A DNA stretch of 64,000 nt, from NCBI RefSeq assembly GCF_001027285.1, contig NZ_CP011509.1, positions 3,666,501 through 3,730,500 on the forward strand, in the 5' to 3' direction. Within the stretch, counting starts at the first letter, position 1. Every line of letters starts with the position of its first letter. The notes beneath the pieces were generated by a model. That model searched no databases, had not been told where the DNA came from, and saw nothing but the letters and a program-made list of their open reading frames with translations. Source of the DNA: Archangium gephyra. Its GTDB lineage: Bacteria > Myxococcota > Myxococcia > Myxococcales > Myxococcaceae. Shown in pieces: positions 1,500 to 12,027 of the stretch. A program made the translations under genes and the position numbers.

Positions 1500-3188
1500 C
1501 TACCGCCGCGTCTCCGCTGGAGGGAAGCGCGGCAGCTCGACGGTGAAGGTGGAGCCCTGGCCCGGGCGGCTGTCCACCTGGATGGTGCCGCCCATGGCCT
1601 CCACGATGCTGCGGGTGATGTAAAGCCCCAGCCCCAGGCCTCCGGAGTGGTGGTCCGGCACGGCCCGCTCGAACTTGCCGAAGATGCGCTCCAGGGCCTC
1701 CGGCGGGATGCCAATGCCCTCGTCGCGCACCACCAGGCGTGCGCGCTCTCCCACCACCTCCACGCGGGCATGGATGGGGCGGCCCGCACCGTAGCGGATG
1801 GCGTTGGAGATGAGATTGGTGACGACCTGCTCCAGCCGCAGCCGGTCCCACCAGCCCGGCACCCGCGCCTCTCCCTCCACCTGGAGCGCCGAGCCCACCC
1901 GGGCCGCCTCGGGGGAGAACCAGGCCGTCACCTCGCCCAGCACCTCACCCAGGTCCGTGTTCTCGGGCTCCAGCTTCAGCTGGCCCCGCGACAGGCGGCT
2001 GATGTCCAGCAGCGCATTGATGAGCGTGGACATCTTGTGCACCTGCCGTTTGGCCACCGTCACGTGGCGCTGGAGCGCCTCGGAGCGGGCATCCCCGGCG
2101 CAGCACCGCGGCAGCTCGCGAGACAGGGCGGTGAGCTTGAGGTGCAGGGGCGTGAGCGGCGTCTTCAGCTCGTGCGAGGCCACCGAGAGGAACTCGTCGC
2201 GCAGTTGCACCGCGAGCTGGGCCTCGCGGTAGAGCCGGGCGTTGTCCACCGCGAGCGCGGCCCGGCGCGCCATGTCCTCGGCCAGCAGCTGGTCCTCCGG
2301 CTCGTAGCGGCGCTCGGTGTGGCAGTGGAAGAAGGTGAGCGCGCCGAGGGTACGGCCCCGGGCGCGCAGGGGGACCGTCAGCATGGAGGTGACGCCCGTG
2401 CCGCGCAGCAGCTCCAGGTGCCGGGCGTCCTTCGCGTATTGGACGAACTGCTCGTCGGAGAGGTGCTGCCGCACCTCGGTCTTCCCGGTGCGGATGACGG
2501 CCCCGGCCCCGCCCGTGTCCTCGAGCCGCTGCGGGTAGCTCCGGGCCAGCTCCCACGCCAGCTCCGCCCGGGCCGGGTCCACGTGGGCCACCGCGAGCCG
2601 GCGCAGGGGGCCTTCCGGCTCGGCCGTGTCCAGCACGCACCCCTCCCCCAGCACCGGCACCGCCCGCTGCACCACATGGGCCAGGGTGTCCTCGTAATCG
2701 AGCGAGCTGGCCAGCGTCTCGCTCACCGAGGACAGGAAGGCCTGGCGCTGCTCGGCGCGCTTGAAGGCGGTGATGTCGGTGATGAAGCCCTCCAGGACGC
2801 CCACCCCGTCCGGGGTCTCGCCGATGCCCACCCCGCGCTCACACACCCAGCGCTCCTCCCCCGCGCGGGTGTGGATGCGGTAGGTGACGGTGAAGGGCGT
2901 CCGGGTGTCGAGCGCCGCCTGGACCGTTTCCCAGACCGGCTGGACGTCCTCGGGGTGGATCAGCTCCCGCCAGAACACGTGGCTGCCGGTGAAGTCCTCG
3001 GCGTCATACCCGGTGAGCTCCAGGACCCCGGGGCTGGCGTACAGGAAGGGGTAGTGGGGCTCATGGAGGCACCGGTAGGCCATGCCCCGGAGATTTCCCA
3101 GCAGGGTGCGCAGCATGCGCTCACTGTCGCTCTCGCCAGGTGGCACGGGAGCGGGGGGAGGTTCGGCTTCCGGCTGGGGTCCCCACAT
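1500..3188 (-). CDS. PAS-GAF sensor histidine kinase
   Basis: A complete 562-residue soluble histidine kinase. A PAS domain (about 24-145) resembles the first PAS of the upstream-strand neighbour (RMLRTLLGN in both). A GAF domain (about 155-320) is followed by HisKA with the phospho-acceptor H339 in SHELKTPLTP. The HATPase domain has the N box NLISNAIRYG, DEGIGIPPEAL and GLGLGLYITRSI. No transmembrane segment is visible, so it should sense a cytoplasmic signal or small ligand through PAS/GAF. The start at 3188 is preferred over the longer frame because GGAGGACAGGC lies directly before ATG-TGG-GGA. No response regulator is adjacent, so it is an orphan kinase. It is read in the same direction as the kinase at 1-1328 with about 170 bp between them. 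Confidence 0.93.
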   Translation of the reverse strand: MWGPQPEAEPPPAPVPPGESDSERMLRTLLGNLRGMAYRCLHEPHYPFLYASPGVLELTGYDAEDFTGSHVFWRELIHPEDVQPVWETVQAALDTRTPFTVTYRIHTRAGEERWVCERGVGIGETPDGVGVLEGFITDITAFKRAEQRQAFLSSVSETLASSLDYEDTLAHVVQRAVPVLGEGCVLDTAEPEGPLRRLAVAHVDPARAELAWELARSYPQRLEDTGGAGAVIRTGKTEVRQHLSDEQFVQYAKDARHLELLRGTGVTSMLTVPLRARGRTLGALTFFHCHTERRYEPEDQLLAEDMARRAALAVDNARLYREAQLAVQLRDEFLSVASHELKTPLTPLHLKLTALSRELPRCCAGDARSEALQRHVTVAKRQVHKMSTLINALLDISRLSRGQLKLEPENTDLGEVLGEVTAWFSPEAARVGSALQVEGEARVPGWWDRLRLEQVVTNLISNAIRYGAGRPIHARVEVVGERARLVVRDEGIGIPPEALERIFGKFERAVPDHHSGGLGLGLYITRSIVEAMGGTIQVDSRPGQGSTFTVELPRFPPAETRR

Positions 3189-3545
3189 GCCTGTCCTCCT
3201 GCCCCCCGCCGGGCTCTCAGGGGGTGACACTTGGGCAACCCCCCGGGCTTCCCAGGTCGTTCCAGGCCACCGGGCACCCGGGGCGAAGCCCGCCCGGCCG
3301 GGGTCCGGAACCCGGGAAAACCCGCCAGAAAATGGTCGGAAAATCCCCGCCGTCAGGTTCCCGGCGCCGGTTCCGTCGCTGTCTTCCAGTACCCCTCGTG
3401 TGCCCTCTGTCGGACATCTGAGGGTCGTGTCATCGGGAGACTTCCTTCGGATGCCGTCGTGCTACCTTGACCCGCCGTTTCAGCGAACCCCACCCTGCCC
3501 AGGCGGGGAGCTCGTGCCTCCCGGCGGCGTTCCGAGGACCTTCCG
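3189..3545. other. divergent intergenic region, no gene seen
   Basis: This 357-bp stretch separates the minus-strand kinase (start 3188) from the plus-strand sigma factor (start 3546). It must hold both promoters. Short open frames here show no recognisable protein. I could not identify a convincing -35/-10 pair for either gene. Confidence 0.5.
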
Positions 3546-4208
3546 GTGTTCGACGATCTCACGGATGACGAACTGTTCGCAGAGGTGCTCCAGCGCCGCG
3601 CCGGAGGCGAGGCCGTGGGCGCCCCGCTTGGCGCGCTGTGTGAGCGCTGGGCCCGTCCGGCCCGCTACGTCATTTCCAAGATTCAGGCCAGCTATGGCCG
3701 TGGCTCTCCGGCGGACGCGGACGAGCTCTATCAGGACGCGGTCGGCAAGTTCCTCGACCGGGGCCTGGACCAGTTCCGGGGCGTCTCCGAGCAGATGCCC
3801 GGGCGCAGCGCGTCTCCCAAGACGTTCTTCCTGCGCATCGTCAAGCACGTGGCCATCGACTTCTACCGGCGCCAGCGCGAGGACCTCGCGCCCGCCGCGT
3901 CGGACCCCGATGACGCCATGGAGGAGCCCGCCTCCGAGGTGGCGCGCGCGGTGGACCTGTCGCGACGCCGCGAGGAGCGCTCCGAGGCTCAGGAGCTCTA
4001 CTGGCGTGCCTTCGAGCGCCTGCAGCAGGAGCACCCCAAGGAAGCGGGTGCGTGGGAGCTGTACCACCACCAGGACGTCGAGGATCACGAGGAATGTGCC
4101 CGGCGCCTGAACATCAGCGTGGTCAATTCGTACAAGCGCGTCAGCCGCGCACAGGCCTACCTACGGCTCTATCTGCTCGACCTCCATCAGGAGGGCGGGC
4201 ACGAGTGA
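3546..4208 (+). CDS. ECF-like RNA polymerase sigma factor
   Basis: A 220-residue sigma-70 family protein starting with GTG, with GAGGACC just upstream. Region 2 is visible as DELYQDAVGKFLDRGLDQF followed by IVKHVAIDFYRRQRED, the typical region 2.4-like end. Region 4 is represented by the C-terminal helix-turn-helix DHEECARRLNISVVNSYKR with a trailing basic helix. There is no region 1.1 or 3. It would direct RNA polymerase to a small regulon. The next gene, 30 bp downstream, has two zinc-finger anti-sigma motifs, so the pair probably forms a sigma/anti-sigma switch; that pairing is inference. The signal sensed is unknown. Confidence 0.85.
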   Translation: MFDDLTDDELFAEVLQRRAGGEAVGAPLGALCERWARPARYVISKIQASYGRGSPADADELYQDAVGKFLDRGLDQFRGVSEQMPGRSASPKTFFLRIVKHVAIDFYRRQREDLAPAASDPDDAMEEPASEVARAVDLSRRREERSEAQELYWRAFERLQQEHPKEAGAWELYHHQDVEDHEECARRLNISVVNSYKRVSRAQAYLRLYLLDLHQEGGHE

Positions 4209-4238
4209 GCCCCCCCGTACCCCAAGGAGGGTACTCAC

Positions 4239-5414
4239 ATGGTCGTTGACGCACTCTCTCGGTATCAGGCCCGGCGTGAGCAGCTCGTTCGGGGTGGAGC
4301 TTCCAACGGTGGTTCGCTCGAGGCGATTGGGGACATTCTCCGGCGCACCGAGCGGTTGGGCAGAGAGGGCGTCGAGCAGGCCCTGCGGGGGTTGACCCGC
4401 GCGGACATCGACGGCTGGCTCCGGTCGCAGAAGCCCGAGGCACTTCAGCCCGCGCTGCTGAAGGCCGCGGAGGAAGCCGCCGAGGCCGCGCTGGGAGAAG
4501 AGGGGGAAGAAGCCGAGGTGTGGCGCACCTCCTCGATGGACGGACTTTCCGCGCGCGACAGGGCCGAGTCCGCCGCCCGCGCCATCGGCGAGTGGGAATC
4601 ACTTCATGGGGCGCTCGACGGAGAGGCAGCGGCACGGTGGAAGGCATTTCGCGACGGCCTGGGACGTCTGGATTCGGTGCTGCGCCCCAAGGCCCGCTGG
4701 TTCATCCCCCTCAACCCACGACGCAGGGCCGAGCGGGACATATTGGATACGGCCGAGCGGACCCGGGCCTGGTGGTTCACGGACCGGGCCGATTGTGACG
4801 ACTTCCTGGCCGCGCTGAGTGCCCGCCCCGAGCGGCCGAGTCCCCACCTGCAGAGCTGTTCGGATTGCCGCGCGGACCTGTCGAATAGCGAGACGGTTGA
4901 AGTACCCCCCAAGCGGCACCTGAGCGCGGATGACTTGTGGCGCTTCGACATGGGGATGATGTCGGCGACGGAGCTGAAGTGGGTGGATGGGCACACGGAG
5001 AAATGCCTCGAGTGTGCACAGGCCATCTGGGCGCTGGAGGAGGGGGACGAGGCCATCGAGAAGGCGCAGGACGAGCAGTCCGCCTCCGCGGCCCGCACCT
5101 CGCGTGCCCCCGAGAGTCCCGCGCGCAGGCCCGGAGCCGCGCGCCATCCCGAGCAGCGTGAAGTGCTGGAGGAGCGGCGGGAGTTCCGCGTGGTGCTCGT
5201 GAGGGAGCGTCAGCGGGCCCGGCTGCTGGTTCAACCCCTCGCGGGGCGTGCCGTGACGGCGGCCGTGTTCCTGGCGCCCGGCAAGCCCTCGCTCAAGCCG
5301 CAGCAAGGCCCCGAAGGTCTCCAGTTTGATCTCGGCACCGGCGGCGGTCGCACCGCCCACCTGATGGTGCGGGTGGGCAACAGCGAGATCTTCGAGCGCG
5401 ACTTCTCCTTCTAG
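4239..5414 (+). CDS. Putative soluble anti-sigma factor with tandem zf-HC2 motifs
   Basis: 391 residues; AAGGAGG eight bases before the ATG. The protein carries two zinc-finger anti-sigma motifs of the HxxxCxxC type: H203/C207/C210 in HLQSCSDC, preceded by C186, and H252/C256/C259 in HTEKCLEC, preceded by H227. The N-terminal 150 residues are charged and helical and the C-terminal about 90 residues look like a small beta domain. No transmembrane segment is present, unlike most ECF anti-sigma factors. Zinc-binding anti-sigma factors of this kind can respond to thiol oxidation, so a redox role is possible but not shown. Its position behind the sigma gene supports the anti-sigma call. It is followed at once by a hairpin. 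Confidence 0.7.
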   Translation: MVVDALSRYQARREQLVRGGASNGGSLEAIGDILRRTERLGREGVEQALRGLTRADIDGWLRSQKPEALQPALLKAAEEAAEAALGEEGEEAEVWRTSSMDGLSARDRAESAARAIGEWESLHGALDGEAAARWKAFRDGLGRLDSVLRPKARWFIPLNPRRRAERDILDTAERTRAWWFTDRADCDDFLAALSARPERPSPHLQSCSDCRADLSNSETVEVPPKRHLSADDLWRFDMGMMSATELKWVDGHTEKCLECAQAIWALEEGDEAIEKAQDEQSASAARTSRAPESPARRPGAARHPEQREVLEERREFRVVLVRERQRARLLVQPLAGRAVTAAVFLAPGKPSLKPQQGPEGLQFDLGTGGGRTAHLMVRVGNSEIFERDFSF

Positions 5415-5437: not shown

Positions 5438-5672
5438 CATCCTCGTGTAACAGGGAAATATCAAAGAGTCGGGGTCCGCCAATGACTTTGGCACCCTACT
5501 CGACTGCAGCCGAGAGCACTGGTTGCTTGTTCGCACTGGCCTGCAACGCTTTGCCTACCAGAATCTTTAAATGTCTCGCGGGCCACCGCTTACACATCAA
5601 CGAGTTTGTCGACAAATTTCGCAGCCAAAAGTTCTCCGCATAGATGGCGCACCCCGCCCGAGTTCGTTCAAC

Positions 5673-5972
5673 ATGACAGCAGACCGCTTGTCTCCGAAAG
5701 AACTTCTGAAGGCGCGGCGCCCCGAGCGATTCTCGGATTCCATTGGGCAAGATGTGCCTGTGCTCGATCGTTCTCAGCTTGAGTACCACCTCGACACCCT
5801 CACGAACCGAAGCGAGGAACTTCCGTTTGAGTCGTTCGCACGCCGTCTGCTTGAGCGAACAGTCTGCCCAAACCTACTCCCCCACACAGTTCCAGAAGGG
5901 AAGAGTGATGCGCCAGTGATTAAGGCACTGGCACGGTTGCGCGCCATGGCCAATCGAGGCTCTAACGGCTAG
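5673..5972 (+). pseudogene. Truncated N-terminal fragment of a large accessory protein
   Basis: An ORF of 99 residues beginning MTADRLSPKELLKARRPE. Base composition here is visibly lower in GC than in the flanks. The segment ELPFESFARRLLERTVCPN followed by LLPHT recalls, from memory, the N-terminus of long accessory-region proteins in which this block continues into a glycine-rich nuclease-like core. Here the match stops after LLPHT and 30 unrelated residues lead to a stop. I therefore read it as the broken front end of a larger gene, joined to foreign sequence. It could also be a genuine small gene. The family recall is not checkable here. Confidence 0.4.
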
Positions 5973-10719: not shown

Positions 10720-11277
10720 TCACAGCGAATAGGGCCCGGAGGCGCTCAGCGCGTCCGTTGGAATTCCCGAGTGGCCCTCGTAGCGGGGCACCTCGCCCAC
10801 ACCCTGGGGGTACTGCACCAGCAGCCCGCGCGCCAGAGCCTCCGAGGCACACGTCTCCTGGCTCGTCAGGTCCGGACAGGCGACCAGGCGCTCGGGAACC
10901 TCCGGCAGCTCCAGCGGCAGCGCCAGCACCGGGAAGTCCTCGTCCTGGGTGGGCGGCCGCACGGCCTGCTCGGGGCGGAGGACGAGGAGCATCACCGCCG
11001 CCGCGGCCGCCATCATCACCCCCACGGCGGCGGAGGTGGACACCCGGGGCCGGTTCCAGCGGGCCGGGCGGATGACCCGGGCCTCGCGCCGGGCTTCCTC
11101 GACGGACGCCTGGGCCACCTCGCGCAGCTGCTCCTCCAGCAGGGCCTCGCGCTGGAGCACGAGGGCGCAGGGCGGGCAGGCAATCGTATGGGCCTCGAGG
11201 GCCGCCGCGGCTTCCGGCTCCAACGCGCCCAGCACGTACTGCTCGGCATCGGCCGGTTGGATGTGCGGCTGGTTCAT
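10720..11277 (-). CDS. Membrane anti-sigma factor, zf-HC2 type
   Basis: 185 residues. An N-terminal zinc-finger anti-sigma motif, LEAHTIACPPCALVLQ (HxxxCxxC), is followed by one transmembrane segment (about AAVGVMMAAAAAVMLLVL) and a periplasmic part of about 80 residues with two cysteines. The ATG overlaps the TGA of the upstream sigma gene (ATGA), and GGAGGAAGC supports the start. It should hold the sigma factor at the membrane until an envelope signal releases it. The two periplasmic cysteines (in VACPDL and QETCASE) could form a disulphide. Confidence 0.85.
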   Translation of the reverse strand: MNQPHIQPADAEQYVLGALEPEAAAALEAHTIACPPCALVLQREALLEEQLREVAQASVEEARREARVIRPARWNRPRVSTSAAVGVMMAAAAAVMLLVLRPEQAVRPPTQDEDFPVLALPLELPEVPERLVACPDLTSQETCASEALARGLLVQYPQGVGEVPRYEGHSGIPTDALSASGPYSL

Positions 11278-11912
11278 GATGCTTCCTCCTCGAGGACTCC
11301 CCGCAGCTTCTTGCGGACCTCGCACAGGATTTGACGGACGCGCTGCACGGACAAGCCGACGCGCGCGGCCACTTCGGCGTGCGGCAGCTCCTGGCCGTCG
11401 CACGCCAGTTGAAAGACACGCTGAGCGCTCGACGAGCACTCGCTCAGGGCCGCCTGGGCCCGGGCCAGCTGCTCCTCGGACAAGAGGCGCCGCTCGGCCG
11501 AGACGGACGGGTCCACCGGTTGGTGGGCCTCGGGCAGCTCCTCCACGGGGCCGGCCAGGGACTCGCGGCGGGCCCGGCGCGCCTCGTCGGCGGCGAGGAA
11601 GGCCGCCTGGGTGAGGGCGAGGTTGGGCAGGCGCAGCTCGGTGAGCAGTCCCTTCTGTTGCTGCTGGATGAGGCGCGCCCACGTCTCCTGGGCGAGCTCA
11701 TGCGCCCGGTCCACCCGGACACCCCGGGCGAGCAGCGAGACCACGACGCGGTGCTGGTAGCGGGAGATGAGGGTGTTCCAGGCGGCACGCTCCCCGTCCA
11801 GGGCGCGCCGTGCGAGCCCGGCCTCGTCCTCCGGCGCGCTGCCCCCCGGCCGCGCGCCCTCCTCAGGCTGTCGCACCACGCTCCGAACTGGTTGCACCAA
11901 GGCCACACCCAT
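11274..11912 (-). CDS. ECF RNA polymerase sigma factor
   Basis: 212 residues. Region 2 runs through ALDGERAAWNTLISRYQH and RAHELAQETWARLIQQQ. Region 4 is ECSSSAQRVFQLACDGQ followed by the helix-turn-helix HAEVAARVGLSVQRVRQIL and a basic tail. It is translationally coupled to its anti-sigma gene by an ATGA overlap. The start at 11912 (MGVALVQP) is preferred because GGAAG lies just upstream; an in-frame ATG at 11993 adds 27 low-complexity residues without a ribosome site. The three-gene operon points to an envelope-stress regulon. Confidence 0.87.
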   Translation of the reverse strand: MGVALVQPVRSVVRQPEEGARPGGSAPEDEAGLARRALDGERAAWNTLISRYQHRVVVSLLARGVRVDRAHELAQETWARLIQQQQKGLLTELRLPNLALTQAAFLAADEARRARRESLAGPVEELPEAHQPVDPSVSAERRLLSEEQLARAQAALSECSSSAQRVFQLACDGQELPHAEVAARVGLSVQRVRQILCEVRKKLRGVLEEEAS

Positions 11913-12027
11913 CGTGTCTTCCCGAGCTTCCGCTGGCCCGCCGGGGTCTCGCTGCTGCCCGGTGCCTGGGAAACGTCCGGTGCCGGTGGACATATCGGAG
12001 GGGAGTGGAGGGGGGCCGGAGGAGGCG

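Follow-up and report, generated by a model that had tools for sequence, protein, structure and literature searches.

A conserved sigma factor gene pair in Archangium gephyra and its relatives encodes a probable soluble anti-sigma factor whose two putative zinc sites are retained or missing as a set

The window, the whole stretch of 64,000 nucleotides that was analysed, spans positions 3,666,501-3,730,500 of the single-contig 12.49 Mb genome of Archangium gephyra. By gene comparison, Archangium violaceum Cb vi76 (94%) and A. lansinium (92%) are its closest named relatives. A 220-aa ECF-type sigma factor with a GTG start is encoded at 3546..4208 (+). It is followed by AAGGAGGG (4224..4231, +), a predicted ribosome-binding site kept in near relatives, and by the gene for a 391-aa protein (4239..5414, +) that, judging from its ligands, its linkage and orthologue searches, is a probable soluble class I anti-sigma factor. 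The sigma factor passes the Pfam threshold for Sigma70_r2 (PF04542; 31.9 bits, E 1.2e-7, cut-off 24). It falls 1.7 bits short of that for NCBIfam sigma70-ECF (TIGR02937; 41.2 bits over residues 37-209, cut-off 42.9) and scores below that for Sigma70_r4_2 (PF08281; 15.3 bits, cut-off 25.7). The segment NSYKRVSRA is invariant across 19 aligned orthologues, and the sigma profile at E<=0.001 finds only the sigma factor itself in its own genome. Against the PDB, the sigma profile A3 gave a single chance-like match and nothing else. A match to a type III-E CRISPR sigma factor (18.9 bits against a cut-off of 100) was dismissed as general ECF similarity. Two other features of the window were recorded. 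Positions 10720-11993 (-) hold a second sigma/anti-sigma pair, in which the sigma frame (11274-11993) has region 4 and the downstream anti-sigma frame carries one HxxxCxxC motif (HTIACPPC) and a hydrophobic segment. On the 3' side of the anti-sigma gene of the first pair, a short frame at 5571-5972 (+), beginning RRLLERTVCPNLLPHT, resembles the start of a truncated larger gene and matched no family over its cut-off.

The partner protein contains HxxxCxxC twice, as HLQSCSDC at residues 203-210 and HTEKCLEC at 252-259, and nowhere else. C186 and H227 lie upstream as further ligands, and each of its five cysteines (186, 207, 210, 256 and 259) is a proposed ligand. Among 200,000 shuffles of the sequence, at least one such motif arose in 141 and two arose in none. 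The highest 19-residue Kyte-Doolittle mean is 1.44, and a membrane segment is therefore not indicated. In these respects both frames are as a sequence-only reading of the DNA had described them, namely a sigma factor beside a soluble partner with two HxxxCxxC motifs and no membrane segment. Putative zinc module 1 (4794..4868, +) is a CHCC knuckle made up of C186, H203, C207 and C210, and putative zinc module 2 (4917..5015, +), which resembles an anti-sigma domain, is an HHCC site made up of H227, H252, C256 and C259. They are flanked in the AlphaFold2 model by an N-terminal helical domain (residues 1-166; 4239..4736, +), a possible sensor or sigma-binding part that matched no Pfam family above cut-off, and by a C-terminal beta domain (residues 306-390; 5154..5408, +) that is Ig-like by weak, nonsignificant Foldseek matches.

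Family and structure searches with the whole partner returned little. Pfam and NCBIfam scans yielded no family over its cut-off; zf-HC2 (PF13490) reached 12.2 bits, below the curated cut-off of 22.2, and a 'Cytotoxic' Pfam match (12.7 bits against 22) was discarded as chance. Among partner orthologues, zf-HC2 was matched by 22 of 30 at E<=5, with a best E of 4.3e-6. None of 20 other zf-HC2-type frames of the same genome has two HxxxCxxC motifs, a sample that rests on a Pfam model scoring below threshold on the window protein itself. The full-length AlphaFold2 model has a mean pLDDT of 65.5, and Foldseek found nothing with it at 0.001; COPI matches of this model were discounted, as their rmsd exceeded 20. 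The partner profile (A2) had no match in the PDB up to E 5.

The two genes travel together. The partner was present in 28 of the 59 genomes of a first sample, the window's own genome counted, and when 195 genomes from the phylum were searched with its profile at E<=0.001, 90 matched. In G026, G156 and G040 the match is confined to the vicinity of the zinc module or to what follows it, and the other 87 are the same 87 in which the sigma factor was found at E<=1e-20, a few of them holding the pair genes as fragments at contig ends. All but one of the 87 belong to the window's own family; the exception (G035) is from another family of the same taxonomic order. Of the 62 partner rows that were aligned, 61 have the sigma gene immediately before the partner gene in the same orientation, and the contig of the remaining one (L077) ends there.

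The two modules differ in spacing and in predicted structure. Module 2 reads H227-x24-H252-x3-C256-x2-C259, and module 1, at C186-x16-H203-x3-C207-x2-C210, is shorter. In a fragment model, module 2 is built of helices with pLDDT values of 80-93, and the module 1 part is mostly under 50. The predicted helices 243-255 and 257-286 (helices 2 and 3) carry the Hx3Cx2C of module 2, with a further ligand upstream of them. When 31 chains were realigned to the module 2 model, RslA (3hug, Z 5.5) and ChrR (2z2s/2q1z, Z 4.4) were the top entries, at scores below the level that excludes chance, since a Z under 8 may reflect only a common arrangement. ChrR superimposes on the module 2 model with an rmsd of 1.4-1.6 across 51 residues at 24% identity. 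Among the 18 chains that Foldseek listed for the modelled fragment, six are ChrR or RslA (E 6-10), the first ChrR chain standing at rank 8 after seven unrelated chains. A profile of the module fragment ranked RslA first among 177,635 PDB sequences, weakly, at E 0.35. Taken as a predicted structure, module 2 is thus consistent with a class I anti-sigma domain. The earlier description of two zinc-finger modules, if one kind of module is meant, holds only in part: module 2 has HHCC ligands and ZAS spacing, and module 1 has a CHCC set and a short C-x16-H.

ChrR of Rhodobacter and RslA of Mycobacterium are class I anti-sigma factors of the HHCC type; the former carries a cupin and the latter is membrane-bound. 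Module 2 shares with both the ligand set, the helical arrangement and an adjoining ECF-type sigma gene. Unlike either of them, the window protein adds a CHCC knuckle directly before the HHCC module, and is extended by a helical domain of 166 residues at the N-terminus and a weakly Ig-like one at the C-terminus. These long extra domains, the lack of any anti-sigma family match above cut-off and the weakness of the fold similarity would fit a different reading, in which the partner is a zinc-binding co-factor or effector that is co-transcribed by happenstance and is not an anti-sigma factor. We consider that very unlikely, because a sigma/anti-sigma operon would account for the gene order, the pairing and the co-occurrence and because RslA and ChrR are the best solved relatives of module 2 by sequence and by realigned fold. 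The sigma/anti-sigma pair named by the sequence-only reading is supported by linkage, by sigma region 2, by the ZAS-like module 2 and by the conserved sigma-gene promoter described below; the inhibition itself is a prediction.

Module 1 invites comparison with RsrA of Streptomyces, a CHCC protein that likewise has Cys as its N-terminal ligand, according to the accessible part of PMC4960319. The C11-x25-H37 spacing of RsrA given there differs from the C186-x16-H203 of module 1, which therefore departs from RsrA-type ZAS spacing. Also unlike RsrA, the window protein has a separate HHCC module, and its module 1 comes without a confident predicted fold. The same partial text places the trigger disulfide of RsrA in the CHCC-type site, and cites the HHCC protein RslA as peroxide-responsive, so that the HHCC/CHCC rule is not strict. 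Ligand types could accordingly be read as a thiol-redox switch: oxidation of the CHCC site would eject zinc, a disulfide would form among C186, C207 and C210, and the sigma factor would be freed while the HHCC site stayed structural. The ligand types of the two modules speak for such a switch, as does the enrichment of the zinc motif in soluble ASDIs, about 72% of which carry it in the portion of PMC7406223 that was available. The report on RslA speaks against it, and with the evidence from the orthologues and linked genes added, we regard this switch as possible yet rather doubtful. More generally, the comparison of the two modules suggests a division of labour in which module 2 would grip the sigma factor and module 1 could sense.

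The orthologue comparison bears directly on the role of zinc. Its 62 rows come from 59 of the 87 genomes, three of which contribute two rows each; other duplicate loci and two fragments from G013 had been dropped beforehand. All eight ligands (CHCC plus HHCC) are complete in 43 rows from several genera. A row from another family (L022, family f2) reads C-CCCHCC and fills seven of the eight ligand columns with Cys or His; Cys replaces H227, and a His beside the first knuckle Cys stands in for H203. Another 18 rows lack all eight ligands, and their module 1 knuckle is eight residues shorter. Exactly five cysteines are found in 42 of the 44 rows of the zinc set, and 0 to 3 in the zinc-less rows. 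In a tree built from 60 rows, without L034 and L077 and with residues 180-262 excluded, the zinc-less rows form one side of a branch with support of 100/99. The tandem nature of the motifs, as claimed from the sequence, is backed both by this conservation of ligands and by their joint absence in one clade. With L022 as outgroup, zinc would be ancestral and both sites would have been lost once, on a tree in which L016, L017 and L022 are long branches of unsure placement. As one shared event this is not an independent replicate, yet it shows that the two sites disappeared jointly and that the pair outlived them.

As both the pair and the promoter of the sigma gene persist in the zinc-less clade, the pair can do without zinc, which may serve as a structural clip or else as an input particular to one lineage. 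The suggestion of a cytoplasmic redox or metal switch made in the sequence-only reading loses ground here, and the absence of the motifs from a sister clade that retains the pair likewise weighs against the thiol-redox switch; redox sensing by the partner is still plausible. The same 18 rows favour a reading in which the zincs are purely structural and take no part in release, and the signal would arrive through ligand or partner binding by the N-terminal helical or the C-terminal beta domain. Precedents appear in the available portion of PMC7406223, where RsiW has a zinc motif and binds its sigma factor independently of zinc, where zinc and non-zinc members mix within ASDI groups, and where arguments are given for each of two roles of zinc in anti-sigma factors, that of a sensor and that of a structural clip. 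Purely structural zincs sit less well with the count of exactly five cysteines in nearly all zinc-set proteins, every one of them a proposed ligand in the window protein, and with the CHCC character of module 1, the kind of site that supplies the trigger disulfide of RsrA (PMC4960319, accessible part). We hold this structural role to be a serious possibility, if short of probable. In comparison with the ASDI groups AS33-1 and AS33-2, as far as they are described in the available portion of PMC7406223, two motifs differ together here on one branch of one orthologous family, and the sigma-gene promoter is retained across that branch.

Sigma residue 102 was also seen to vary. It lies in a conserved region 2 stretch that reads KHVAID or KHCAID; Val is present in 43 of 44 zinc loci, the other having a gap, and Cys in 15 of 17 zinc-less loci, the other two having Ala.

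ECF promoters are typically of the GGAA/CGTC type and autoregulated. Upstream of the sigma gene, GTCAGGTTCCCGGCGCCGGTTCCGTC at 3352..3377 (+) is a predicted ECF promoter of the sigma/anti-sigma operon, corresponding to a GTCAGG-N16-CGTC pattern conserved upstream of sigma orthologues. In the alignment of these upstream regions, GTCAGGAA is followed by CGTC 14 bases on in both clades; the copy in the window's genome has TT where the family consensus has AA after GTCAGG. GTCAGG occurs within 200 bases upstream of the sigma gene in all 59 loci, and the strict spacing in 50 of them (39 of 43 zinc loci and 11 of 16 zinc-less loci); the distance from promoter to start codon varies greatly among orthologues. 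By comparison alone, the site is thus predicted to be an autoregulated ECF-type promoter. These sigma-gene sites were chosen by pattern and used as the training set for a matrix. In two sets of control stretches, 342 and 320 in number, no stretch reached a score of 15 with it.

Genome-wide counts of the motif need to be read with care. The strict motif gave 5 matches in the window's own genome against 1 for a backward control; two matches with no convincing gene behind them (L104 and L105) were taken as chance. In 19 relatives it gave 47 against 49, and the looser GTCAGG-N16-CGTCG gave 4 against 30. As there is no genome-wide enrichment, the case for a regulon rests on the position of the site before the same genes in many genomes. 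Of the 47 strict matches, 19 lie before the sigma gene (10), a phosphatase gene (2) or a small-protein gene (7), and the other 28 are unplaced or confined to a single genome, such as those before a methyltransferase (L121) and AlaX (L122). In two Archangium genomes (G001 and G002), the motif was also observed 20 bases upstream of a gene whose product begins MVYGEEKA (L106 and L143).

The phosphatase gene is the divergent neighbour of the sigma gene. Its product is a 234-aa metallophosphatase (PF00149, E 1.2e-14) in which the motifs GDLHG, GDLVDRG, GNHE and IDTG were read by eye. In the accessible part of PMC2887360, this motif set marks bacterial PPP phosphatases, and IDTG separates PPP-like from ApaH-like proteins. 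An ApaH/Np4-cap reading, drawn from the part of PMC10148737 that was available, is weakened by the presence of IDTG and by NCBIfam matches below cut-off. In every row with both genes, the phosphatase is divergent from the sigma gene, mostly 136-475 bases away. The gap widens to about 4,970 bases in G000 and A. violaceum (L030), to 2,218 in A. lansinium (L031) and to between 1,104 and 2,056 in three zinc-less genomes; at two loci (L011 and L035), no phosphatase was matched beside the sigma gene at E<=1e-8. Histidine kinase genes occupy the gap in the window's genome. Two similar PAS/GAF histidine kinase genes were recorded between the sigma and phosphatase genes, at 1500-3230 (-) of the window and at 1516-3012 (-) of L103, and this pair looks like an insertion within Archangium, because the sigma and phosphatase genes adjoin divergently in most relatives. 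With the trained matrix, a promoter site on the phosphatase's own strand was found at <=1/100 shuffles before 42 of 51 loci, and a score of 15 or more before 40 of the 51. Counted by genome, 32 of 39 pass, comprising 28 of 29 in the zinc clade and 4 of 10 in the zinc-less clade.

A second set of sites precedes an operon elsewhere in the genome. It encodes a small protein of 71-82 aa with the conserved end LRPKVPFGA (3637717-3637959 (-) in G000, outside the window), for which no Pfam family was matched; we do not call it ubiquitin-like, since its profile (A4) gave only chance-like PDB matches. Of the 87 sigma genomes, 75 have the small protein, as against 1 of the 108 genomes without the sigma factor (Fisher 8e-40, a value that ignores relatedness). 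Its neighbour, a 192-aa ThiF/E1-like protein (PF00899, E 9e-22), was found in 24 of 27 genomes searched. At 0/200 shuffles the promoter site precedes the operon at 12 of 24 loci. These are 12 of the 16 loci of the zinc clade; the zinc-less clade has it at 0 of 8, or at 1 of 8 when 1/200 is allowed. A relaxed pattern with a spacing of 15-17 was present at 19 of the 24 loci, five of them zinc-less, and not found at L183, L186, L188, L189 and L190. In G018 the small gene (C7:461425) keeps the promoter motif and the ThiF gene lies on another contig without it (C27:57712), and the promoter therefore goes with the small gene.

The third candidate target is an RNA ligase (Pfam RNA_ligase, 82.8 bits, cut-off 27; TIGR02306, 143.4 bits, below its cut-off of 151.15), which in the window's genome has a promoter site 75 bases upstream. 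All four Archangium loci with this gene keep the site, at -75 to -77. The relaxed motif was present at only 6 of 14 RNA ligase loci, two of which are pieces of one gene, and a core role for this target was set aside; in five of the six it lies at -71 to -77 (four Archangium and one of the Myxococcus genus group). The target sites before the phosphatase and the small-protein/ThiF operon are weaker in the zinc-less clade. By family, no linked gene is a classical thiol-redox gene, which is a further point against the thiol-redox switch.

Considering these observations together, we propose as the probable mechanism that a soluble anti-sigma factor, co-transcribed with an autoregulated ECF sigma factor, would bind the latter in the cytoplasm and keep it inactive. 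The grip on the sigma factor would come from HHCC module 2 as the anti-sigma domain, and CHCC module 1, as a second zinc knuckle, would join it in one metal-dependent unit, as might be expected because both are present or absent together. Once the inhibitor let go, the sigma factor would drive promoters of the form GTCAGGAA-N14-CGTC, that of its own operon and, in the zinc clade, also those of the PPP-type phosphatase and the small-protein plus ThiF/E1-like operon; in Archangium the RNA ligase may be added. A possible trigger is that the CHCC knuckle is oxidised or loses its metal, and the N- or C-terminal domain of the partner could provide an alternative input. Zinc binding by the modules, recognition of the sites by the sigma factor and the nature of the trigger are, like inhibition, what we infer from these patterns. 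Searches of the open literature found nothing on this pair, on anti-sigma factors with tandem CHCC plus HHCC sites or on the regulon.

A bolder and, in our estimate, unlikely version would have a two-zinc inhibitor with divided labour, an HHCC grip and a CHCC redox or metal trigger, control a new kind of myxobacterial stress regulon comprising the PPP-type phosphatase, the small protein with its own E1-like enzyme, possibly a protein-modification pair, and, in Archangium, the RNA ligase. If that division of labour were true, the role of zinc would be directly testable by swapping natural variants. One orthologous family offers a natural comparison for this purpose, in that one clade combines the sigma factor and its promoter with two zinc sites and the sister clade combines the same elements with none. 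Comparative promoter evidence, moreover, links a single sigma factor to a PPP-type phosphatase, to an RNA ligase and to an uncharacterised small protein with its E1-like partner, and this candidate regulon is testable in Myxococcus.
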